Below, in pieces: positions 22,490 to 64,000 of a DNA stretch of 64,000 nt. The stretch covers positions 82,459-146,458 of the forward strand of contig CAMPDV010001068.1 in assembly GCA_946699065.1 (NCBI GenBank), written 5' to 3'. The stretch is from Loxodes magnus (lineage: Eukaryota; Ciliophora; Karyorelictea; Loxodida; Loxodidae). The stretch's first letter is position 1, and each line of letters opens with the position of its first letter. The notes below the pieces were generated by a model. The model did not search any database. It was given only the letters and a program-made list of their open reading frames with translations, and was not told the DNA's origin. The position numbers and the translations under genes are program-made.

Positions 22490-24545
22490 TAATTAATTAA
22501 AAAAGCAAAAGGACTTTAAATATAAAATTAGGAAACTGGCTTATTAAATAATTAAACTGTTTTAATAGGAAAATTAATATGTATAATGCTAGGTAAATTG
22601 AATGTTAAATGATATTTCCATATATTTATTTATTATTCCAATTATGAAGTTATTATTATAACAGAATTAATATACCATTTTATTTGCTAACATTGAAAAA
22701 TAAAATTATTGAGTATATACTTTGCAAATATCTAACAGTAAGTTTAAGAAAGATATATACGTTAAATAATTAAAAGGTCATATCTAGTTAATAGAAAGGC
22801 AGCAAAAAGGTATTTAAATGAGAATTTAAAATCTATTTAGTTTTTTTTATGCAATTTTAGTTGATCGAAATCAATAAATTAAGCAAAAAGGTATAACATA
22901 TTTCTTTAAATAACTTTAAGTTTATCTATAATTTTTATGAGATATATAATTACTAAAATCTAAGACATAAAAATAGCTAAAATTTATATAAATCAAGAAA
23001 ATTGTTTAATTAAGATATTCAAGTTGATAAATTAAAAAAAGTCTATATAAAAAATGAGTATTTCGCTAATATATGTGTAAATGCTTTTTTTAAAGCGACT
23101 ATGTATATTATATTTGAATTTTAGAACTTAAGTTATATAGATAAGACATTATCTCAAGGATAAAGGAATTTTTTGAAGTTAATTACATTTTTTAATCTCA
23201 TGCGAATCTTTAAGAATTGGAAAAGATGATATTTCATAATGAAGTTTTAATATAATTTATTAAAATTGGTTAATAACTAATATCAATAGAGAAAAGGAAA
23301 TGTAATAATTTTCATTTAATTAAAAAATTGCAAGTATTTTTATAACTTTTTAACTTTTTTTACTAAATAAAAGAAGAATTTTATCAATTTTTATCATTTT
23401 AAATAGAATGAACATCTTGGTAATATCACTATATTTCATCTATAAGATATGACTTCTTAAAAATAAAAAGCGATATTTTTATACTTGCTTTCATATTTAG
23501 AATTTATCTTATTTCATCTTATACAATCAACAATATTTATTTACATAAACATTTTTTTAATCTCTTTAATCCACAAATAACTCATATTTAATATCTATTT
23601 ATAAGCTAATTTTTATGAAACTGGATCATTAAATATATTGGTATAAACTAAATATAAAGTTTTTGTGAATTATCTATGTTTGTTGGATTTCTCACTATTA
23701 TTTTATATGTAATAATAATATTAAAATTATAAGTAATAATATATTAAGATATAATTAGAAAGCTATATAAGATAGATGTAGTTTAATTTTTAATTTAAGA
23801 ACTTTATTATTTCTATTTCAACTATTATTAAAAGATCAATTAAATACGCTGCTTACCATAGTGCTACTGCCTTTTATTTCTAATCAAAAGAAAGAGGGTT
23901 CTATTCCCTCAGTAGCCTTTTTGCATGTTATGTATTCATTTTAATAGAAAATAAAATGTCTCTTAATGTTTATCTTTATTCACTTCATATTAAACTTATA
24001 AAAGATAGCCTGCTTTTTGAACATTTTATATATCTTCTTAAATAATATAAGAATCATTTACCTATATAATTATACCTTTCAGACTTTAAAAAGCTCTATT
24101 TAAATTCTTGAAACAGGAACTTAAAATTTATAAATGTAAAATAACAAAAAAGAAAACATTATTATGATTTAGAGGTTACTCAGATAAAATTCAGCATAAA
24201 TAAGTTTGAAATAAGATATTAAATAGTTACAGTAATACGGTTTTATCCTGATTTATTGATGTTTAAAGAGAAAGCAAGGATTTAAGAGAAGGAATTTAGT
24301 TTTTCTAGAAATTTCTTAATTAAAATGAATGAAGTGAAATAAATTAAAACTTGAATTTTTAAATAAATAATTAAAGTTATATTGCTAAATTATTAAATTA
24401 TTAAATTATTAAATTAAAAGGTAAATAGGATTTATTTATTTATAACACTTTTAATATATCTGCTTTAATTTTAAAATGATATTTAAAAAAGATAACTATA
24501 TAATGCAATTATTATATTTTAAATTTAATAATAATAAAAATATTA
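22490..24545. other. AT-rich stretch with only a tRNA-like sequence
   Basis: Apart from the tRNA-like structure at 23,847-23,917 and a short (ATTAAATT) reiteration near 24,386-24,415, nothing was recognised. Confidence 0.35.
23847..23917 (+). tRNA. tRNA-like sequence, possible decayed tRNA-Arg(UCU)
   Basis: A good T arm is present (GAGGG, loop TTCTATT, CCCTC at 23,894-23,910). The anticodon loop TTTCTAA would give UCU, and TTTCTAATCAAAAG resembles tRNA-Arg(UCU) of other eukaryotes. A TTTTT run follows, as expected for a Pol III terminator. Against this, the acceptor pairing CGCTGCT/AGTAGCC has a C-C mismatch, the anticodon stem has one mismatch and no proper D stem forms. An alternative perfect 7-bp pairing, GCTACTG (23,863-23,869) with CAGTAGC (23,910-23,916), would give a D-armless shape. 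Probably a pseudo-tRNA. Confidence 0.3.
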
Positions 24546-27461: not shown

Positions 27462-29444
27462 TCAAAATTATTATTGCTTCTACTCTTCATTCTGTTAATA
27501 TCTATTTTCACTTCTAGACTTCTAAAGCTACTCCTAATCTTATTCATTTACGAATCTTATTTTAATCTCATATAATGTTTCTCAGATCTTATTTTCTATA
27601 TCATAGCTATAAATCTTTTTTCCATCAAATACATATATTTTCTAATTATCTAATATTGGATTCTAATTGCAAGGCCCTCCAGGATAACTCTAATCACCTA
27701 TCTTTCCATAATTCAACTCCTCTTCTTGCTTTTTTCATTATAAATTATAAACTCCATCTATATATTCACCGAACATATAAACTTTATGACTCTCATCTTA
27801 AACTAAACTTAATGCAGATCCTAAAGGAATGCAATCATAAAGTATTTCTCAAACTTCAAAATCAAAATCAAATCGCTAGCCTGACATTTATTCTAGTCCT
27901 TCATTATCTATTCCCCCTAGAACAATAATAGTTTGATCTATCAAAATACTTCCAAAATTTTTATTATTGTATATTATTTCATCAAATTTTACGAATTTGT
28001 CTTCTTCCACGCTATAATATTCGCATGTTTAGTCAGGTTAAGATGGATTATTACCACAAAATATGTAAATTAATTCATTACTTTTAATACTTCTATGAAT
28101 TATTCCTGGATTGCTTCTAGACTATAGCATCTATTTTTATTTTATAACTTTTAAATTTTTCCTGTTAATAATTTGAAAGTTTTGTGAGCGGTTTCCATCA
28201 AATTTTCCTCCAGCAACGTAAATAAAATCTTAAGTGTAATAAACAGAAGTTTCTTCGTCCATCTAAATAGAATTGTTTTATAGTCTCTATTCAATAAATA
28301 TTACTCCATTTCTAGTTATTACTGTATTTGCATCCTTTAAAAAAAGACAATTAGGAAATTAATTGTAATTCATAAATTATTTATCTTTTAACTCTTAAGT
28401 TGAATTTACTGAAACTTATGGATCGATTTTCGAAGTTTGAATATTCTTTGAATTAATATCTTCTTATTTAATCAAATTTAACTCTTAATGCTAAGTTTCG
28501 TAAGTATTTTAAATTTATTCAATTGTTGCTCTAAACTCTTCAATGTTTGGTCTATTGTTTGGATTATAATTAAAGCATTTTTCTAAAAGCTAATTTAATT
28601 CTTTATTCTTCTTAATTTATTTTCCTATTTCTGGAATTTTTTTTTATTCCACAACATAATTAAAAATTTAATTTTTAGGTATATTACAGAGTGGAGCTTT
28701 TTCATTCAAAATTTCTGTTGCAACGCATGCAAGAGACCAAATATCACTTTAAGGATATATTTTTCTCAAAAATACTTCTGGAGCCATTCACTAAGTGGTT
28801 CCTCTCATTTTAGAAGTTGTAGATACAATATCATCACTTGCTAAGCCTAAATCAGCTATTTTAGGAGTATTATTATCATCTAATAAAATATTTAAAGATT
28901 TGATATCTCTATGAATGAGGCCTACATTGTGAATGGCTTGTATTCCTTCAGCAATTTAGCCAAGTAACTTTATGTTTTTATAAAATTTCTCTTTTTTATT
29001 TAAGGTATCAGGAAATAATTATTCATTTTTAATTAAGTCATACAAATTTCCTTTTCGTTAATAATCAGAATAATGACAGAAACAGTAATTATCTTCCTCA
29101 CTAGTATCAATAACTACTCCTATAATTCTCAAAACTTTTTGATGATTAACTGACAAAAGTTATTTGCATTCATTGTAGAAATTATTAATGAATTCTTGCT
29201 AAGTTACACCTCTTTTTTGGGTCATTATTTTGAGTGCATAGTCAAGATTGTCAATTTTTATAACATAGACTGATCCAAAACCTCCTTTGCCAATTTTTTT
29301 AAGTTAACTAAGATATTTTCCATTTGGAATTAGTTAATGATAATCTCATATTCTAATAGGTGATCTGATATCTTTTGAAGCTCCGTTTTAGTATAAGAAT
29401 TCTCAAATATCATAAACTGTATAATCTTATTTCTTAGATTCCAT
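27462..29444 (-). CDS. TKL-like protein kinase with C-terminal kelch-type repeats (kinase-kelch gene 1)
   Basis: ATG at 29444 to TGA at 27462-27464 is one frame of 660 residues. The kinase domain (about 45-300) has the glycine loop GKGGFGSVY (52-60), the Lys in YALKIM, the catalytic loop HRDIKSLN (178-185), IADLGLA in place of the usual DFG, and TTQWMAPE. In that last motif Gln is TAG and Trp is [11 protein letters not shown] is typical of the tyrosine-kinase-like group. Residues about 355-640 hold kelch-type beta-propeller repeats ([48 protein letters not shown]). It would phosphorylate Ser/Thr, with the propeller as the likely partner-binding part. The C-terminus is Gln/Glu-rich just before the TGA. 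Two paralogues lie at 41.2-43.4 and 54.3-56.3 kb. Confidence 0.8.
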
Positions 29445-29900
29445 TTATATTTATAAAATTAAATTATAGAAAGTGGTCTTAATTAAATCTAAAGACCTTA
29501 TTTAAATTAGTTTATTTCGCTAGAAACTAAAAAGTGTTTGCTTACAAAGGTTAAGTCTTTTTACCAAAAATTTAATTATAGAAATGAAGTTTAAAAAATA
29601 AAGATTCTATTTATAGTTATAAGACAAGGAACTATTTCTAGTTGTGATACTCTATTCTCTTTATATAAACCTCTTATTATTTGAAGATGTTGGTCATTTA
29701 AATTTAATAACGTAAAAGCTTAGACTCAAAGATTTTAAATTAGTTAATTATTAGATATTTCTAAGTATTTCAAACTAATTAATCAAAATTATGAAGATAA
29801 ACATTACTACCAGCATTAAATCACTCTACTTCTTTATTTCTTTTTATTATATTCATATCCAAATTTAATATCTAGATACTTTCAAATTATTCATTTATTC

Positions 29901-30205
29901 ATTTCAACTAAAAAAGCTTTTGAACCGGAAATTCCTTTCCGATTGCACGACTCGATGCTCTCTTTTTATGGAATAACGGGGATACCCTGTTGTGCTCCAG
30001 GCACAGCTGCTAGGGAGCTCCATCGCTATGAGCAGCCAGGCTTCAAGCCCCTATCAAGAGCGGATAATCTCAAAGACACTGTTCCCTTCAGAAAATGACT
30101 CTGACCAGGGACTTTCTCAGCGACAGGAAAGGAACTTATTCCTAGCCATAAAACCAGAAAGTTTAGTCACGAAGGTCATTCTCAGCTCCCACCATCTTTT
30201 CAATT
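29901..30205 (-). repeat. Dispersed ~300-bp repeat, family A, copy 3 (inverted)
   Basis: Same element as at 22,183 and 61,301 in the opposite orientation, lying between the divergent kinase-kelch 1 and WWE genes. The plus-strand 84-residue frame here is nearly identical in sequence to the minus-strand frame in copy 2, simply because the two copies are nearly identical. I do not regard it as a gene. Confidence 0.8.
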
Positions 30206-30605
30206 ATTACTTTAAAATTATTTCTCATATAATTAATAAGAATTAAATCAAGTTTGCTGTTTCCAAAATAAAATGAAAAGAAAAGTTACTAAAAGAATAA
30301 AAAATAATTTTTGAAGATATCAAATTTAAATACTGCTATACATCAAAGTGCAAATCTAATGTATTAATAGACTCCAAGTAAGCTAATTAAGTTATATAAG
30401 CATATTAACTTAGATACTTTTACAATCTAATCCATATTATATCAAAATTATTATAACCAAATAATTTACTTTAAATTCAAACTTTAGAAAGTGAAAGAAA
30501 GATCTAGTGATATAGATGTAGAATCTAATTATTCAAATACTAGCCATAATATACTAAATGCTAGAGTATATTATATATGATAAGCGTGATAGATTGTAAG
30601 GATAT

Positions 30606-32523
30606 ATGTATAATAATTAAATTATTAAGTTAAAAATAAAAATTATTTAGTCTATTTAAGCAGAATGCAATATATGTCTAAATTAGTTTGAAAGTGAGGT
30701 TTATATACCTAAGATTCTTCAGTGTGTCATTCATTATGTATAGTCTGCTTAAAATAAATTTGTAAGATACTTAAAAAATTACCTGTCATAAATGTAGGCA
30801 AGTGTTCAACATGGATCCCGATCAAAGTATTACTAATTTTGGGCTTTTAAAGATTCTCTAATCCCAGAAGTAAGAAAAAAATAGGAATAAAACTGAAATT
30901 AACATAATTTAATCTAAAATAATCTTTTGCTTAACTCATTAAGAATTAGTTTGTCATGGATGTACTCTTGGTAATCATGCATCTCCAAACTTCAATGTCA
31001 AAGATTTTAGAAACGCCTATAAAGAAATGATTCCGAAATATGCAAACTAAATGCAAGTAATTACATCCTAAACAGATAAACTTAACAGATTTTACTAATA
31101 GAAGATTAAATTAGATATTGAGCAGTTCAAAGAAATGATTATCAAGCAAACTGAAGAACTTATAAACTTTCTCTAAGAAAATAAGCAATCAATGATAAAA
31201 AAAGCAGATGATATCTTATAAAACTAAGTAGAATCTTCAAGCAAAGAACAAGAGTAATTTTAACTAGTCTAGTAGGAATTCTAAGAAATACAGAAAGAAT
31301 AAGAAAATGATTAAAGATAAGAGTTACCTTAAATATTAGAAAGAATAAAGAAATTAAAAAACATCGAAGAAAAATTAAGAGCATTTCAATTAAATGATTA
31401 GCAAGATAAAGTCTAAAAGATTATAGTTACTAAATTATTCAGCGAGTAGCTTTAGCAATAAATCAAATAAGAATGTGACATTTAGCTGTAGATAAAGTAG
31501 GAGTAGTAATAATAAAAAATAGTTCAATAGGAAGAGCAAAAGATTTAGATTATTGGGAAAGAGGAAAATAAATAGATTGTGAAGAAAAATAAAAAGACAA
31601 ATGATCTAGAGAGTTCTTTCTTATTTGCAGCAGTTAGGAAATTAAAATTAGATTTAAGCAAATTCTAATTTTATTACTATTTAGAGTAAGATTAACTTGC
31701 TAAAAATTTTTAAAACTAATAGCAACTAGATGCTTGGCTATAAACTTTAAAATAAGATTATCAGCTGTTTGTTCTTGAATTTAAACCAGAAGAAAAAAAA
31801 GCAATAACGATAATCGGAACGTTTCTGTACATGGATAATAAGAAGAACTGAAATAGAATAAATGACACAGCTAATTTACTATTATAATTCGCTTAAAACG
31901 CAAAAGATACTAACGTAGTCATTGCTTTTACAAATGATTACTAATAAAATTTCTATTACGTTGATTTAACCAACCTTTAGTAAGCAAACTTGCAAACTGG
32001 AAAATAAAGATAAATGAAATATGATAAAACTTATAAAAATTACAATAGATGGCAATGACAAAACGAAACAAGACAATATATAGATTTTGAGAAATAGAAT
32101 AGTGACGAAATAGATTAAGCTTTTTAACAAAAACTTCCATCTTGCGAAATTAGAATAGGAGGATTTGCAGAACGTTAGAAAGTTATCGAAATAGATTTCA
32201 TTAGTATGAATTAAAAAAACACACACACTGGATAAAAAAGACCTATAAAAATATTGCCTGGGCTTACTTTACCAAGACCTGGATATATAATTGTTGGAAA
32301 TAAAGAAAATGTTCTAAAAATGATTCAAGAAACAAATAAGTAACATTCTTAAACATTAAATTCAAATCTACCTTTATCTTATTAATTTTGGGTTAATATT
32401 AAGAGTAACCACATAAATAGCTAAAGAAAAAATTATAAAATTCAATACAAACAAAAAAGCAAATTTCATATTAAATTTCTATTTTCAAAGTAAATAAAAG
32501 AAAATCAATTTTTTTTGATGTGA
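30606..32523 (+). CDS. RING / B-box / coiled-coil / WWE protein, ubiquitin-ligase-like
   Basis: The frame from ATG 30606 gives RING ligands ECNIC (residues 20-24) and LQC. The next RING parts, GHSLCIVC and TCHKCRQVF, lie in two further frames, so the finger is complete only across two one-base shifts (about 30,726 and 30,773-30,779). From 30,781 a single frame runs to TGA 32,521-32,523. It holds a B-box-like CLTHQELVCHGC, a long Glu/Lys/Gln coiled coil and a WWE domain (about 32,020-32,260: NRWQWQNETRQYIDFEK and IEIDFISMNQKNTHTG), whose second Trp of W-Q-W is a TGA. WWE domains read ADP-ribose marks or ubiquitin-system partners; the RING would recruit an E2. Both shifts sit at GG/poly-A runs, so an assembly error is as likely as decay. 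Confidence 0.7.
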
Positions 32524-32699
32524 AGGTTTAGCAAAAAGTATAAAATTATATAAATATAATTAATAATTGACTAATTACGCTAACAGTAAATTTATAATAC
32601 ATAAAAAGGCTTCTATTCAAACAACTTAAAATAACAATGAATTTAATTAAAATAAATGAAAAAAAGAATTGGCTGTCTTAATCTTCTTAAAAGTAGTTA

Positions 32700-34259
32700 T
32701 CATGTTTGATTAAAAATTTAGATGTTGTCTGCTTTAATTTTTTAATTTAAATCAACAAAAGCAAAAATTAAATTTCGCTATTTTTAAATTTTGCCCTCTG
32801 CTAGACTTTTTGTACTTAGTTCTAAATTTTAAGGATTCATCTAATTACTTTCTAAGAATTCTATTCTTTTTTAAATCCACTCTAAAAAATCTAAGGCACA
32901 ACTTCCATAAATCTAACTTGCATTTTATAATGATTTATATCTATCAATAGGATCAAAGTTCAATGCTTTATGAATTTTTCTGAGACACACTGGACAAAGA
33001 AAACTTGGTCTACTAATACTCTCTTTAAAATGATTAATACCATTCATAATACACCTGTAAAAAATGCAATGACTCATTCCAAATAAATGCCCAACTTCAT
33101 GAGATAAAATTCTACTCATAAAATATCAAAGCTACATTTCTTAGTCTCCTTCTTATAGTGATTGTGCTTCTTAAAACTCATATCTAGCAAAACTTATTAC
33201 GCAGCATCTTGACATTCTATCGGCAACTCCATATATTCAATTTTCTGGGTGTTTACTATATAAATCATATTTTGTGATTCCTACCATGCAAAATGATCCT
33301 AAAGGTAATTTATATAAACTCATTATATCTCCAGCATTATACTACTCGCCATATTCTGATTAAACAAGCTAAAGTTTATGTTTCTTAATATTCAGAATAG
33401 GTAATATTTGCACTTATATTCCTAAATAAAATGCTTGTATGTATTATTAAAGGATTTTAAGCATATTCTAATTAACTTGCTTGTCAAGAGGTAGAAGAAA
33501 TATTATATTTCTTCCTATAGAAGGTAAGAAATGATTTCATTTTAACCAACTTTTATATCCTTAGCCACCCTCTTTATTTAAACTTAATCAATCATTCTTC
33601 TTCGGGATTTCGATATTTTACCACCAAAGATCAATGTTCTAAAAAACAAATTTAATACTCTATGGAATATCACTTCCTAATGCCTTCTCTTACTACATTC
33701 TATCAGGTCTTTTGAATTTAGGTATTTTTTCAACCATTTTAAAAATAATCCCAACTGATAAATCACTAAATTTGCATAAATTCTGATATTATTAGCATCT
33801 TTCTATGATATACACAAACTAACCCAAATATCTTATATCAATAGAATAAAAGATGACTATATATTCATTTATTAAGCTATGAAAAACTCTAAAAAATTGA
33901 TAAAATAATTAGTTTTAAGACTGCATCCAATAATAATACTCAACTACAAATGCCAAAATATTAGGTATATTAAAATAATAGTTACACTTACTTTTTATCT
34001 ACTTTAGATTCTTAATTTAAGTTATCTATATCTCACTATTATAATTTGATGAAGTTTTAAATTTATTAACTATAAAAGATACACTAAATCAACTAAAGAG
34101 ATAGGGATCATTTTATTAAATATAACCTATTAAAGATGCAAAATGCTTATCAAATACAGTCTTTCAAATTATTTTTATTTCTAAATTAAGTAATTATAAA
34201 GAGTGTTATGCTTATAAATTAATAATTAGGAATATTAGTCTATTCATCTATAAATCCAT
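32700..34259 (-). CDS. Archaemetzincin-family zinc metalloprotease
   Basis: ATG 34259 to TGA 32700-32702 is one frame of 519 residues. The C-terminal half is a clear archaemetzincin: FCMVGITKYDLY, NWIYGVADRM, ISFARYEF, then the metzincin zinc site HEVGHLFGMSHC (His387, Glu388, His391, His397). The second zinc site follows, with its spaced cysteines (YRCIMNGINHFKES, CPVC), then KALNFDPIDRYKSL. These proteases cut peptides at the N-terminal side of basic residues in characterised members, and most are cytosolic. The first ~170 residues (e.g. FDKHFASLIGYIQQNDPYLF) are rich in aromatic residues and not recognisable as part of the family. Two Trp there are TGA. The start overlaps one arm of an 82-bp palindrome, so the N-terminus is uncertain; ATG 33737 (MVEKIPKFKRPDRM) is an alternative start for the conserved part. 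Confidence 0.8.
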
Positions 34260-34279
34260 TTATAACCATAACACTCTTT
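34198..34279. repeat. 82-bp near-perfect inverted repeat at the start of the metalloprotease gene
   Basis: AAAGAGTGTTATGCTTATAA starts one arm (34,198-34,219), and its reverse complement, with one mismatch in 22, forms the other (34,258-34,279). The spacer is 38 bp. The chosen ATG of the archaemetzincin gene (34,257-34,259) sits at the inner edge of the second arm, so the first ~20 codons come from the palindrome. It could be a tiny MITE-like insertion or a hairpin in the mRNA leader. Confidence 0.7.
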
Positions 34280-34626
34280 CTTATAAACTTTAAGGTATTT
34301 ATATCCTTCTAAAAAAGGAGAATCAGAAGTCACTTTTGTTTTTAGTATGATGTTTTTAAACTTTTTCTTGGAAATAAAATAATTAAATTTAGAAAAGCTA
34401 AAATAATATAATAGAGGGAATTATTTAATTTGGCTTGTAATTTAATTATTTAATGATAAAGTCTAAGCTTATTTTATATATAGCCTTTATAATATTCATA
34501 AAACATCAATCTATCTCCTTAATTTATTTATTAAACTTAAACTTTAAAGCTAAAATTTAATAAGAGCTTTTAGACATTTAAGATTTTAAGTGTATATTAA
34601 GTTAAAAAATTCTTATCAGTATTGAA

Positions 34627-36292
34627 TCAAAATCTACTTAGCTCTATTAACGTTAAGTCATTTAAGATGCTTATTATATAAAAAATAGATTAAAGTTACC
34701 TATCTCAATCAGTTAGAACGTACCATTTAACTCTGGCGTAATTCCATTTTGTCCTTATAACCTCATCTATGCTCAAATTTCTTTCGTAGCATGCAAATTG
34801 CTAGATTCTCAGGCAGAATAAACTTGAAGTTCGCAAATTGTCAATATAAGCTAATTGGAACCTATAAGGAGCTTTTTAAACAATTTCCATTTGATTTGAA
34901 AATAAAACTGAATAATGATTCTCAGTCTATAAAACTCATATAGGATATATAGGGTTTTTATAAAAAGTGCCTACAATAGTAAGCTAATTAGTTTCTCATA
35001 TCGAAAGAAATCCTAATTATGATTGTTACTAAATCCCCTTTAAGGTCTGTTCACTGATTGTCTTATTATCAACATTTCCATTAAATGTATTTGAATGTGC
35101 TTTACCTGTTAATAGTAAGTTAACAAGCTCTTAACTAGCAAAGTTATCTTCATTTAAGAAGGAAACACTATTATCCATTTCGTTTATTATTTGTTAAATA
35201 CCTTTAGTTAATATTATACTATAGCTAAGTAAAATTATCCCTACTGGACTTTGGAATTACCTTAAATAATCCAATAAGAATTGCTTGGCTTTAGACTTTT
35301 AATCTAATATGATATATTAACAATCTTCTGGCTAAAGCTTTATTTCTTAATTCTAATCTGCTAGTCTATTTATTTAGTCCAATTATTCTTACTCTATGAA
35401 GCAAACTCTTAGTCTTTCCTCATTTTCTTATTAACACTGACTAAGAATATCTAGCAATGAATTAACTAAGCATTGCTGTATGATAGAAGGAGTAGCAAGA
35501 ACTATAGGAATTTTTTTGCTGAATAGTAAGTTTTTTATAATATAAGCTTGTAAGCCCGCTATGAGACCACAAGGTCCTGGATTTTTCTAAATTATATGAT
35601 TAACTTACTTAAACTAGTTAAAATTGGTATTTTTCGTTAAAAATCAAACCTTAGCATCAACTTTAGTTAAAGCTCTTTTTTTCATCTCCAAAAAGCAGCT
35701 TCAAAATGTCATCACTTTCTTATTTGCTTATTTTTAAAGTGTTTTCCAACTGGCTTTAAGGAATTTAAACTTGATTTTACATAAACTCTTGATCATTTAA
35801 TTTTTCACTTTCGTTATATAAGCTATTTTAGGATAAAATATCACAAGTCTATCATTTTTTAGTTGCTTTTTTGTTCTACTCCAAGAATTATTAATTTGAT
35901 TGAGCTTATTAACTTTAAGCAGGCTCTTTTGTAGATGAATCGTTTTGATAAAATAGGCTCTAAATAGCTTTATCAAGCTATTGAATTTAGCTCTAGACTT
36001 ACTATTGGATTAATTGCTCTTGCTACTACTATTTTGATTAATTCTCTTTAGTAAAAATGTTCTATAAAATCATAAGATTAATAATAATCTCTAGCACGCT
36101 AGCAGTCTTTGGTTTATAACTCTGAAGATTATCCAAATTAAGCAGCTTCTTAATCTTTTTTAGTGAGAAGCTATTTTTGTAAGGACTTTCTTGTAAGAAC
36201 TAAGCTAGAGTGGTATTTAAGTTATGCTTTTGTAAAAACTCTTAAATTATAAGCTAAGAAATTATTTTAGGTAAATCATTTTATTTCTCCAT
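34627..36292 (-). CDS. MINDY-4-type deubiquitinase
   Basis: ATG 36292 to TGA 34627-34629, with one 22-bp intron, gives 547 residues in a single frame. The first ~35 residues (LPKIISQLIIQEFLQKHNLN) look LisH-like, as in MINDY-4. A Gln-rich linker follows, then the catalytic region: SWCQGLIFNEKYQF, then Q-K-N-P-G-P-C-G-L-I-A-G with nucleophile Cys234 and Gln228 six residues before it, as in other MINDY enzymes. Later come ELVNLLLTG, GFLSIWETNQLTIVGTFYKN, and NHYSVLF with the likely catalytic His452. MINDY enzymes cut ubiquitin chains, with preference for Lys48 linkage in characterised members. Gln228 is encoded by TAA, which supports the reassigned code. It lies divergent from the tandem-kinase gene. 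Confidence 0.85.
35587..35608 (-). other. 22-bp spliceosomal intron
   Basis: Within the MINDY gene, the minus-strand string starts GTAAGTTAATC and ends ATTTAG. Removing it joins ...LVQ to KNPGPCG, restoring the exact Q-x5-C active-site spacing of the family and one frame of 547 codons. Without removal the two conserved halves are in different frames. Confidence 0.8.
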
Positions 36293-36779
36293 AGCCCTTT
36301 ATTTATATCTCTTTACTTTTAATTCTACTACTTTATAGAACACTTATATCAATCAAGTCTATAGGATAATTATGTAGGCTATATTTAAGATAGATACCAT
36401 TAAGCTTAATGCATAAATTATGCTAATCTTAGAAAATAGGTTGCTTTAATGTAAATCTTCCCATTAAGAATTGAAGATACATAAAAGCAGAAAAATGCTA
36501 ATTGTATAAGGATTTAAGTATATAGTTTGCTCCTTTAAACAGAAAGGTAAGCTTTACTAATCTATTAAAGAACAAATAGAATCATTGAAATACTTAATCA
36601 CATTCAAAATTAAAGTAGACTGAGAATCAATATCTATAAATCCAAAAGATACAAACTAACTTAATAAAATCCAACAATATGACTATTCATAGATTTAATA
36701 TCTAATAAAACTCAATATTTGCTTATATAATTAAGAAACCTTTCTATTTCAAAAGAACTTTAAATTTCCATTATAAAAT

Positions 36780-39700
36780 ATGCTATTAGAACTAATTTAA
36801 TCAATATTATAAAAATTCTCTTCAACCCATTTATGTAGAAACTATTGTCAAACAATTACAGAAGCTTCTAATTAGCATACTAATGGTGCGACATTTCATT
36901 ATCAAAAAGAATAAAATAATTAATAAAAATAGTTGTAATAGAGAGAGGTCTAAGGTAATATAATCCCTTGATAAATTAGAGAGTAGTTATAAGAAATGAT
37001 CCATAATTAAGTTATTTAAGAATTTAAATATCAAGATTTAGAATTTTCTGAGAGTCATTTAATTGGAGAAGGTGGATTTGGTAAAGTATACAAGTGCAAT
37101 ATTAAGTTTTAAAAGGGTTCTACGCTAGTAGCTGCTGTAAAAGTAATAGAAACTGATACTAAAATAAGTAAACTTAAAGTAATGAGAAGATTCATTGAAG
37201 AAGTGAAAATTCATGCTTCTCTTAGACATGATAATATTATGCTACTGCAAGGAATTAGTTTTGATGTTAAGCTCTGCTTAATTATGCCTCTTATGTAGAT
37301 GTCTATTTAAAATATTATTGAATTAGAAAACTAAACATTAGAGTAAATAAAACAAAAGCAGAGCTTAAAATTCTTGCTATAAATAGCAAAAGGGATCTAA
37401 TGGCTACATGCATAAGGTATTATTCATCGAGATTTGAAGCCTAATAATATTTTAATTGACTAATTCTATAATGCAAAAATAGCTGATTTAGGACTAGCAG
37501 TTCTATAGGATCATCTTAATTATCAACAGTAATCTGGTACAAGATAATACTAAGCGCCTGAAATTTTTAACTAAAATTATCCAGCAACATAAGCTATAGA
37601 TATCTGAGGATTCGCATGCATAGCAGTAAATTTGCTTTTGAGAAATTAGCAAGGCACATAAAAAATAAAATAAGAAGAAATGTTTTAAGAAAGCTAGATA
37701 TCTATATTGATAAACTAAATACCAATCTAATATCGAGAAATTATAAATGCTTCTCATTAAATCCTTAAGAAAGACCATCAGCTGGATAAATAGTTAAATT
37801 CCTTGAAAGTATGAACGATGAATAAATTTCTAAGTTATAAAATAAATTTACCTAGCAATATAAATCAGAGTATATTTCAAATCAACAATAAAAAAAGGCT
37901 AATAGATCCAACATAAATAAAGAAACTGAGATTTATAACTAATTAAATTAATCATTGGTTGAAACAGATTAGCCTAATATAATTGAACTATTAGATAATA
38001 ATGATAAAGAAAAAGAACTTTCATAATCTAGAAAAAACTAATAGAAATTAGAGGAAAGCACTTAGATGGAAATTATAAAATAACTAGAAAAATTAAATTT
38101 AAATCATTTTACTGATGTATTAGAATTTTAAAACCTGGTCTTTTAAGAAAATAAACCAATTGGAAAAGGAGGTTTTGGAGAAGTATTTAAATGCTAAATA
38201 CATAACAACGATTTATAGCAAGAAGTCACAGTTAAAATAATTAAAATTCCATATAGCAATCAAAAATTAGTCGATTATATTATAAACGAAATCAAAATCT
38301 AAATAAGCATTAAGCATGATTCTATATTATAACTTTGGGGAATAAGTTATAATCAGAAACTATGTTTAATCACTCCTTTAATGACTTGTACACTTGGAGA
38401 TATTATTTCAGGAAAAGCATGCCTCTTCGCTAAAAGAGATGAATAATATAATCGATTAAGAGTAGTAATGAAAATATTAAATCAAATAGCCGAAGGAATT
38501 CAATATTTACATTGAAAAGGAATTGTGCATAGAGACTTAAAGCCTTAAAATATATTACTTGATAAAGAATAAAATGCTAAAATTTGTGACTTTGGAATAG
38601 CTAATTTTTAAACTTACTTAGATAAGTGCTTTCAAACAGGAACTCTTAGATATTAAGCTCCTGAAATTTTAACTGAGAAATATAAAACTTCGAATGCAAT
38701 AGACATTTGAGCCTTTGGTTGTTTAGTATTTGAGCTTCTGTTTGAAAAATAGACTTGGGGAAATATTGATGAGGACTAGATAGCTTAAGCTTTAGTTGAA
38801 GAGAAAGAACCATTTTCATAGTTTCAAGTAACTCATTAAATTGCAAAGGATTTATAGAATTGCTTTAAAGTAGAATCAGTAGGCAATTTTATAAATCTTT
38901 TGCTTTAATGCTTTAAGATTGATCCAAATAAAAGACCTTCTATATAATAAATTGTCGAATGCTTCTAAAGCTTGAAACTAGATGATCAAAAGAAAAATAT
39001 TTAGACCTTTAGTTGTAAAAAAAACGAAGAGGAAAGAAATACTTGTATCCCAAATGTATCTAAGTAAAAATATTTTGGAAGCTCAAATAAATCATCCTAA
39101 CCAAACTCCAATAATATTATATAAAGTCTGTATGCAGAACAGGATAACTCAAATGAAGAATAATCAGGAACTTTCATTTGTAAAAATGAAAGCGGAATCT
39201 GCGGAAACGTACTTTAACACTTAAATTAGAAATAATATTTCTATAATTTTCATATTATATAAGTATATTAATTAATTGGAAACTCTAAATTCACTTTTAA
39301 CATAGCTAACTATAATTGCTAATATTCAAATCCATCTCTAAGCAATTTATCTCTAGTTAATTTTGATTTAAAATAAAGGATTTTAAGATTGCCTAACATA
39401 ATTAGAAATCCTTTTAAACATCATACATAAAATTTAAGTCTTTTTAGATAACTATTTTCAAAATTTACCCTCTAATCTATTAATTATACGAATACATAAC
39501 TTCAAAAATTGTATAAAAGGCATCTAAAATTAAATAGTTAGAACTTAATTAACTAGATAAATAAAAATAGTAAAGCATTGTATGCAAATAAAATTTATTT
39601 TTGCATCACTCTTTTAGAGATTTAAATTAGCTAAATTTTATTTTATTAAAGTATCATTATGAGATAGGCTATTAAGAAAGTTAACTTAGAATGTTTTTTT

Positions 39701-63195: not shown

Positions 63196-63346
63196 ATAAA
63201 CAAGATCCCAAGCAAATATGAAGTTACTTTTATTTAGTGCTTTATTTTAAGATTAATTTAATTAAGCAAATATTTATTTATCATCTAATTTATAATTAAT
63301 TTAAATCTATTTTTAATTTAAGAAAATTAAAATTAAAATTAAAAAA

Positions 63347-63417
63347 TGATCCCACCGAGATTCGAACTCGGATTGTTGGATTCAGAGTCCAAAGTACTAC
63401 CATTACACCATGGGACC
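63347..63417 (-). tRNA. tRNA-Gln (anticodon CUG)
   Basis: A complete cloverleaf: acceptor GGTCCCA/TGGGATC (one G-T pair), D arm with AATGGT, anticodon stem TTGGA/TCCAA with loop CTCTGAA (anticodon CTG), and T arm CCGAG-TTCGAAT-CTCGG. It has no intron and no encoded CCA. It reads the ordinary CAG codon; the UAA and UAG glutamine codons would need separate tRNAs, which are not in this window. Confidence 0.93.
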
Positions 63418-64000
63418 AATTAAAATTAATTATAAAGCTCCTATATAAAATTGCTAAATTATTAAAATCCTAATTAAGAATGAAAAAAGAAATTACTATC
63501 ATACTTTATTTGTTTAAAACTTGCTTAATTTCTAAAATTATTACATTAATTATTTAAAGCTTATTAAGAAAAAACAACTTAACTTTTAATCAATTATTTG
63601 AAATTTTATTATTAAAGCTAAGTCATTACTATTATAGCACAGCTAATAATATAAGCAAATAAATATAAGCTTTATTATACAATCCCAAATAAATAAAATA
63701 TTCTATTGATTAATTTTATACCTTAAATATATTATTAATAAACCATAAATCTCATATATTTTATTAGTTATAAATAGAAATATAAAAGTATTAATTATAA
63801 AACTATTTATTAAAATTATTAATTCACTTTTGGTCTTTTAATATAAAGAGGAAAAATAAACGAGTAAGATCTTTGTAAAAATTTAGCTAAAAGACAAAAC
63901 AGAATATTAAAAATAAAATAAAACTAATGTAAAAAAACTAAAAGCATAGTAAATAAAAAGATTGAGATAACTATTACTATAAATTTGGATATTAATTAAT
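63418..64000. other. AT-rich stretch without a recognisable gene
   Basis: Upstream flank of the tRNA gene; nothing else identifiable. Confidence 0.35.

Follow-up and report, generated by a model that had tools for sequence, protein, structure and literature searches.

In-frame TAA, TAG and TGA codons of a Loxodes magnus contig fit a code in which UAA and UAG mean glutamine and UGA means tryptophan or stop

Genes of the window and their in-frame stop codons

We describe how the three standard stop codons are read in the protein-coding genes of a 64-kb stretch of DNA deposited as Loxodes magnus (contig C1068, positions 82459-146458), the whole of which is here called the window. Its G+C content (GC) is about 17-27%, and the standard code leaves a single open reading frame (ORF) of at least 100 amino acids in it. 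An earlier note on this DNA, drawn up from its letters, had proposed that the genes follow the karyorelictean code, in which UAA and UAG (together UAR) encode Gln while UGA serves as both Trp and stop. Translation with NCBI table 27, followed by scoring against Pfam domain families, revealed matches for three kinases, kelch motifs, M54, MINDY-3/4 and WWE (positions below are those of the window).

27462-28260, minus strand: kelch-like region downstream of kinase 1 (Pfam Kelch_6 33.5 bits, Kelch_1 30.5 bits)
28533-29306, minus strand: protein kinase domain of kinase 1, which contains TAA, TAG and TGA in frame (Pfam Pkinase, 161.5 bits with table 27)
28788-28793, minus strand: TAG TGA, codons read as Gln-Trp in the T-T-Q-W-M-A-P-E motif of kinase 1
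32050-32250, plus strand: WWE domain (Pfam WWE 59.2 bits with TGA as Trp)
32967-33284, minus strand: archaemetzincin (peptidase M54) domain with HEVGHLFGMSHC (Pfam M54 38.1 bits)
34723-35631, minus strand: MINDY-3/4 deubiquitinase domain (Pfam 206.4 bits; PDB 9rmd, E 7.5e-25)
37047-37730, plus strand: protein kinase domain of kinase 2 (Pfam 150.3 bits)
38141-38959, plus strand: protein kinase domain of kinase 3 (Pfam 187.2 bits)

Most of the codons singled out in the earlier note stand where it had put them. The minus strand reads TAG TGA at 28788-28793 within the kinase 1 context M-R-G-T-T-[TAG]-[TGA]-M-A-P-E, and TGA supplies the Trp of D-I-W in kinase 2 (37605-37607; A-I-D-I-[TGA]-G-F-A), the Trp of D-I-W-A-F-G in kinase 3 (38708-38710; A-I-D-I-[TGA]-A-F-G) and the second Trp of W-Q-W in the WWE domain (32056-32058, plus strand; N-R-W-Q-[TGA]-Q). 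A correction is needed for the MINDY enzyme, whose Gln had been assigned to TAA: the codon is TAG, at 35587-35589 on the minus strand, six residues ahead of the Cys in G-P-C-G. We take this Gln to be the catalytic residue. The kelch-like region carries in-frame TGA at 27849, 27735 and 27582.

Upstream of the WWE domain, positions 30660-30830 (plus strand) hold by eye a Cys-rich stretch of the C-x-x-C kind, which suggests a RING-WWE protein; Pfam returned nothing there in the one frame tried.

Codon meanings in domain scores and alignments

Pfam scores favored Gln for UAR wherever we varied the reading, with the MINDY domain falling from 206.4 bits as Gln to 203.6 as Glu, 201.0 as Lys, 189.2 as an unspecified residue (X) and 185.8 as Tyr, and kinase 3 falling from 187.2 bits as Gln to 183.1 as Lys, 182.9 as Glu, 174.8 as X and 170.4 as Tyr. 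TGA read as Trp likewise outscored Cys, Arg and X in MINDY, in kinase 1 (154.8-155.8 bits for the three alternatives, versus 161.5) and in kinase 3 (180.3-180.6 bits, versus 187.2), and the WWE domain dropped to 54.0 bits with Cys, the one alternative compared there; margins across domains were 5.2-8.9 bits.

Comparison of the window genes with PDB structures, for which the figures cover the alignments shown, placed nine window TGA codons inside an alignment. Trp lies opposite three of these: TGA 37605 faces it in all four alignments that reach the codon (one CDKL2, three CDK7), TGA 34936-34938 faces the Trp of MINDY-3, and TGA 38708 gives a mixed picture, with Trp in EGFR and CDKL2 and Tyr in CTR1 and IRAK4. 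Tyr or Phe lies opposite two more (28788 and 33237). The archaemetzincin domain aligned with PDB archaemetzincin 2x7m at E 4.4e-07, and the WWE region, searched against PDB with its stops written as X, gave no match. Taken on its own, the window is modest, weak evidence for TGA as Trp.

A stronger signal came from the genome to which the window belongs (705,730,643 bases in 7,843 contigs), from which we took the best-scoring 48 of 136 kinase matches; some of these are near-duplicates, so that the codon counts are not independent. With the three stop codons masked, 37 TGA fell in well-filled columns. For 30 of them the column had a majority residue: Trp for 28, Leu for one and Ile for one. Trp was enriched 88-fold at TGA. 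The coincidence of TGA with conserved Trp beyond chance, by which the earlier note had proposed that its reading be judged, is thus seen in the kinases, where the third codon of D-x-W was TGG in 17 and TGA in 13 (the motif was unmatched in 18). At TAA and TAG, Gln showed the strongest enrichment of any residue (4.5-fold over 221 TAA codons, 4.7-fold over 115 TAG codons). Among the controls, TAT, TAC, TGT, AGA, AAA, AAG, GAA and CAG each returned their own residue on top; the TGG control cannot return Trp, because TGA was counted as unknown.

Histone H4 and eRF1 genes

Histone H4 is the cleanest test of the code here. Nine H4 genes were found in the genome, and UAR sits on an invariant Gln four times, with Gln27 encoded by TAG, TAG and TAA in three genes and Gln93 by TAG in one. 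Read from DNA alone, the codon right after G-F-G-G is TGA in all nine, and GC falls from 0.36-0.42 inside the gene to 0.15-0.22 over the next 60 bases.

Contig C196 carries two eRF1 genes some 35 kb from each other. Their frames stay open when read with table 27, and they are identical to PDB eRF1, a chain that we take to be human, at 231 and 233 of the 419 places compared. TAA lies opposite a human Gln at 7 of 13 places in one gene and 8 of 15 in the other, and both genes end E-D-F-L-TGA with one or two further TGA within the next few positions (again from DNA alone). Where the PDB chain has N-I-K-S-R-V-N-R-L-S70, both genes have N-I-K-S-R-A-V-Q-K-A, that is, N-I-K-S is kept and Ala stands at Ser70. 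In this small sample, none of the nine H4 genes and neither eRF1 gene terminates at TAA or TAG, and table 27 fits better than table 28, the two codes that the earlier note had named for comparison. A third match to eRF1_1 was set aside as an eRF1 gene, since its minus-strand reading resembles the Pelota/Dom34 family.

Several results weigh against these codon meanings. Neither Trp nor another aromatic residue lies opposite four of the nine aligned window TGA: 38513-38515 sits at a variable place, 34996-34998 is opposite Met, 33126 is the third, and 27849 faces Thr in a kelch alignment to PDB that is itself weak. Opposite the TAG TGA of 28788-28793, the relatives of kinase 1 shown from PDB (IRAK4) carry A-Y. 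In the eRF1 genes, TAG lies opposite a human Gln at just 2 of 6 and 1 of 5 places, most TAG falling elsewhere, and in the kinase enrichment test the CAA control put Glu first. Of the columns listed as most frequent for TAA or TAG, none had a Gln majority (Glu and Gly lead), as is expected because UAR was masked. A masked log-odds tally over the kinases placed Lys first for both TAA and TAG, with Gln outside the top three; under another background the order was Lys, Gln for TAA and the reverse for TAG. Its controls strayed in the same manner (masked CAA/CAG returned Lys, Glu and Asn, and masked GAA returned Asp ahead of Glu), which means that such a tally breaks down once the bulk of a residue's codons is masked. 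It counts neither for nor against Gln, and we set it aside as a test of UAR.

Gene ends in the window

Three genes had been said to end at TGA shortly after their last family motif, a claim that held in part.

27462-27464, minus strand: TGA, candidate stop of the kelch-like gene
32521-32523, plus strand: TGA, the stop proposed in the earlier note for the WWE gene
34627-34707, minus strand: two in-frame TGA stop candidates for MINDY, 34705-34707 and 34627-34629

The TGA at 27462-27464 is a plausible gene end, with GC of 0.24 upstream and 0.133 in the 60 bases downstream. For MINDY, the proposed stop at 34627-34629 (GC 0.287 to 0.183) has a rival 26 codons upstream at 34705-34707 (GC 0.347 to 0.20), which appears the better candidate because five codons separate it from the end of the domain and GC falls there. 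The stop at 32521-32523 is unproven: it stands 90 codons past the WWE domain, hence not shortly after the last motif, and GC shows no clear drop across it (0.18 to 0.167).

tRNA genes for Trp and Gln

A whole-genome search for a tRNA pattern with CCA or UCA anticodon at 14-base spacing revealed 128 matches (6 in the backwards control). The 100 that were listed are all CCA, 48 of them on contig C67 at a spacing of about 187 bases and 50 on contig C148 at about 241 bases, where one gene stands apart on the opposite strand. In the stretches taken from C148, ARAGORN called 67 tRNA-Trp(CCA) genes, all of them identical. Every array gene read letter by letter (40 of the 48 listed on C67 and 67 of 67 on C148, with about 10 unlisted matches outside the set) has the CCA anticodon and a 4-base-pair (4-bp) anticodon stem, with position 27-43 open and the other four pairs intact. 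The open pair is A.C on C67 and U.C on C148, so that 27-43 was perhaps opened twice, or else diverged since. Two tRNA-Trp(CCA) genes on contig C110 have a 5-bp anticodon stem, and in the five other tRNA kinds inspected 27-43 was always paired, once as G.U (in Gln UUA); the Met gene has a mismatch at 31-39.

One of the two, C110:362484-362556, differs from a tRNA-Met gene 775 bases upstream solely in the anticodon arm and at one base of the T loop. The pair spans C110:361709-362556, both members have an extra T-stem base, and by their letters they look like the outcome of an exchange of the anticodon arm.

For the codons UAA and UAG, a pattern with UUA or CUA anticodons gave 263 matches (14 in the backwards control), of which, among the matches listed, all but four look Gln-like by eye. 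ARAGORN called both UUA and CUA tRNAs, under its labels Stop and Pyl, in the four stretches taken, and we infer from their likeness to tRNA-Gln that they carry Gln. These Gln-like tRNAs and tRNA-Lys(UUU) are likewise found in tandem arrays, so arraying is a general habit of this genome, and the tRNA-Trp arrays are weakened as proof of a special gene dosage.

At 15-base spacing the pattern carried UCA in 14 of 15 matches. None of these repeats was accepted as a tRNA-Trp(UCA), as ARAGORN called a tRNA at none of the 14 and Rfam at none of the three scanned. Seven UCA-loop loci (on contigs C444, C558, C561, C594, C921 and C1144) share a tRNA-like T arm and a CTTCAGA loop; this looks like a tRNA-derived repeat, for which ARAGORN gave no call at the seven loci and Rfam none at the three scanned.

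Interpretation and alternatives

The earlier note was largely right in its observations, which were confirmed in part, and its interpretation as the karyorelictean code is supported by the kinase columns, H4 and eRF1. We have little doubt that the window comes from the macronucleus of Loxodes magnus, or of a karyorelict very close to it, that its genes use UAR as Gln and UGA as Trp or stop, and that tRNAs and eRF1 work about as follows. This account builds on what was directly observed: the meanings of the codons, the TGA that closes the H4 and eRF1 genes, the tRNA genes with their stems, and the residue in eRF1. UAA and UAG would be read as Gln by tRNAs with UUA and CUA anticodons, and UGA would by default mean Trp inside a gene and stop at its end. 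In mid-message, the abundant tRNA-Trp(CCA) with its 4-bp stem and open 27-43 pair may read UGA through first-position wobble, outcompeting an eRF1 that Ala in place of Ser70 would have weakened. At the end of the message, the nearness of a short 3' untranslated region (UTR) and poly(A) tail would tip the balance toward eRF1. The tRNA set and the Ala70 eRF1 are probably the machinery of this code.

A poly(A)-proximity effect of this sort was proposed for Parduczia and Condylostoma by Swart et al. 2016 (PMC4967479). The same source states that no single eRF1 change tracks the codes, which is why Ala70 is offered here as supporting evidence and not as cause. A bolder extension, which we regard as possible but doubtful, is that the arrays, with more than 100 open-27-43 tRNA-Trp(CCA) genes, outcompete eRF1 at sense UGA while the two 5-bp genes serve UGG only. 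If that were true, gene dosage, beside tRNA structure, would set the balance between sense and stop.

Among the alternatives, the one that survives best keeps the same code but has UGA read by a tRNA-Trp(UCA), or through anticodon editing, in place of the 4-bp-stem tRNA-Trp(CCA). Our patterns accept only a standard loop and a spacing of 14 or 15 bases, so that an odd tRNA could escape them, and the searches covered neither mitochondrial tRNA nor editing. Against this, the whole genome yielded no credible tRNA-Trp(UCA): at 14-base spacing just 1 of the 128 matches has UCA and by eye it is not tRNA-like, and the 14 UCA matches at 15-base spacing fared as described above. We consider this alternative improbable.

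Less probable still, at a slim chance, is a Condylostoma-type code (table 28), under which UAA and UAG would also serve as stops. In its favor, TAA, TAG and TGA each encode an amino acid here, as they do in Condylostoma magnum, and a 2022 abstract by Seah et al. reportedly speaks of rare possible UAA stops in karyorelicts. Yet TGA ends all nine H4 and both eRF1 genes, and a passage of PMC11441545 gives UGA as the sole stop in Loxodes. That the window holds pseudogenes or wrong frames whose stops are real can be dismissed as next to impossible, for although a single standard-code ORF in 64 kb is what non-coding DNA would also show, family scores are high when stops are read through, in-frame TAA and TAG fall on conserved Gln in H4 and eRF1, and TGA falls on Trp columns of kinases; the H4 and kinase counts hold against it unless those genes are dead as well.

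Other features of the window

Outside the protein-coding genes above, the window contains an ordinary glutamine tRNA gene, a weak tRNA-like match and a GC-rich repeat.

23847-23918, plus strand: weak tRNA-like match (Rfam 30.8 bits, cut-off 29), with no ARAGORN call
29905-30205: GC-rich, 300-base island within the AT-rich genome, an interspersed repeat
63346-63418, minus strand: tRNA-Gln(CUG) gene (ARAGORN; Rfam tRNA 62.1 bits)

The island had 2013 candidate matches at first look; the 40 scored include itself and 39 others at 96-97% identity. As a known RNA it was rejected: no Rfam family reached the cut-off, and its folding was unremarkable (z -0.65 and -1.44). It is perhaps a young short interspersed nuclear element (SINE) or RNA-derived element.

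Comparison with known systems

The code of this genome, and a 4-bp tRNA-Trp(CCA) in Loxodes, are already known. According to Seah et al. 2024 (PMC11441545), table 27 applies to karyorelicts, Loxodes among them, and UGA is both their sole stop and a Trp codon; for L. magnus the paper describes the code, its context rule, the 3' UTR features (mean length 53 bases, median 41) and a depletion of sense UGA ahead of the true stop. The 4-bp-stem tRNA-Trp(CCA) is stated for Loxodes in passages of PMC13092985 and PMC12005148, both citing Swart et al. 2023/2024. In what these sources give of the table 27 systems, Parduczia sp. (PMC4967479) and Loxodes magnus (PMC11441545) share with our data UAR as Gln, UGA as Trp and stop, TGA after the last H4 codon and AT-rich 3' ends, and no difference was found. 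Condylostoma magnum (table 28) differs in that UAA and UAG terminate too, whereas TGA ends alone were seen here.

Added by the present analysis are an independent test with H4, eRF1 and kinases and two corrections, to the MINDY codon and to the MINDY stop. A further addition may be the arrays of tRNA-Trp genes, in which 27-43 is open in two different ways, alongside copies with a normal stem. The main text of PMC11441545 has no word starting with tRNA, and passages of two papers that treat both Loxodes and tRNA do not mention tRNA arrays, which is no basis for calling the arrays unreported. Arrays of putatively UGA-capable tRNA-Trp beside normal copies, together with an Ala70 eRF1, make the competition model directly testable.

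The closest parallel outside the ciliates that we compared is Blastocrithidia, in whose eRF1 Ser67 presumably corresponds to human Ser70. Passages of PMC13092985 state that an open top pair goes with raised UGA readthrough for Blastocrithidia and Condylostoma tRNAs, and those of PMC12153298 give the eRF1 change as Ser67Gly. As described in PMC12153298, Blastocrithidia resembles the genome studied here in a tRNA-Trp(CCA) whose top anticodon-stem pair is open and in an eRF1 altered at the Ser70-equivalent place, and differs from it in that UAR means Glu and UAA is stop there, whereas here UAR means Gln, UGA is stop and eRF1 carries Ala.

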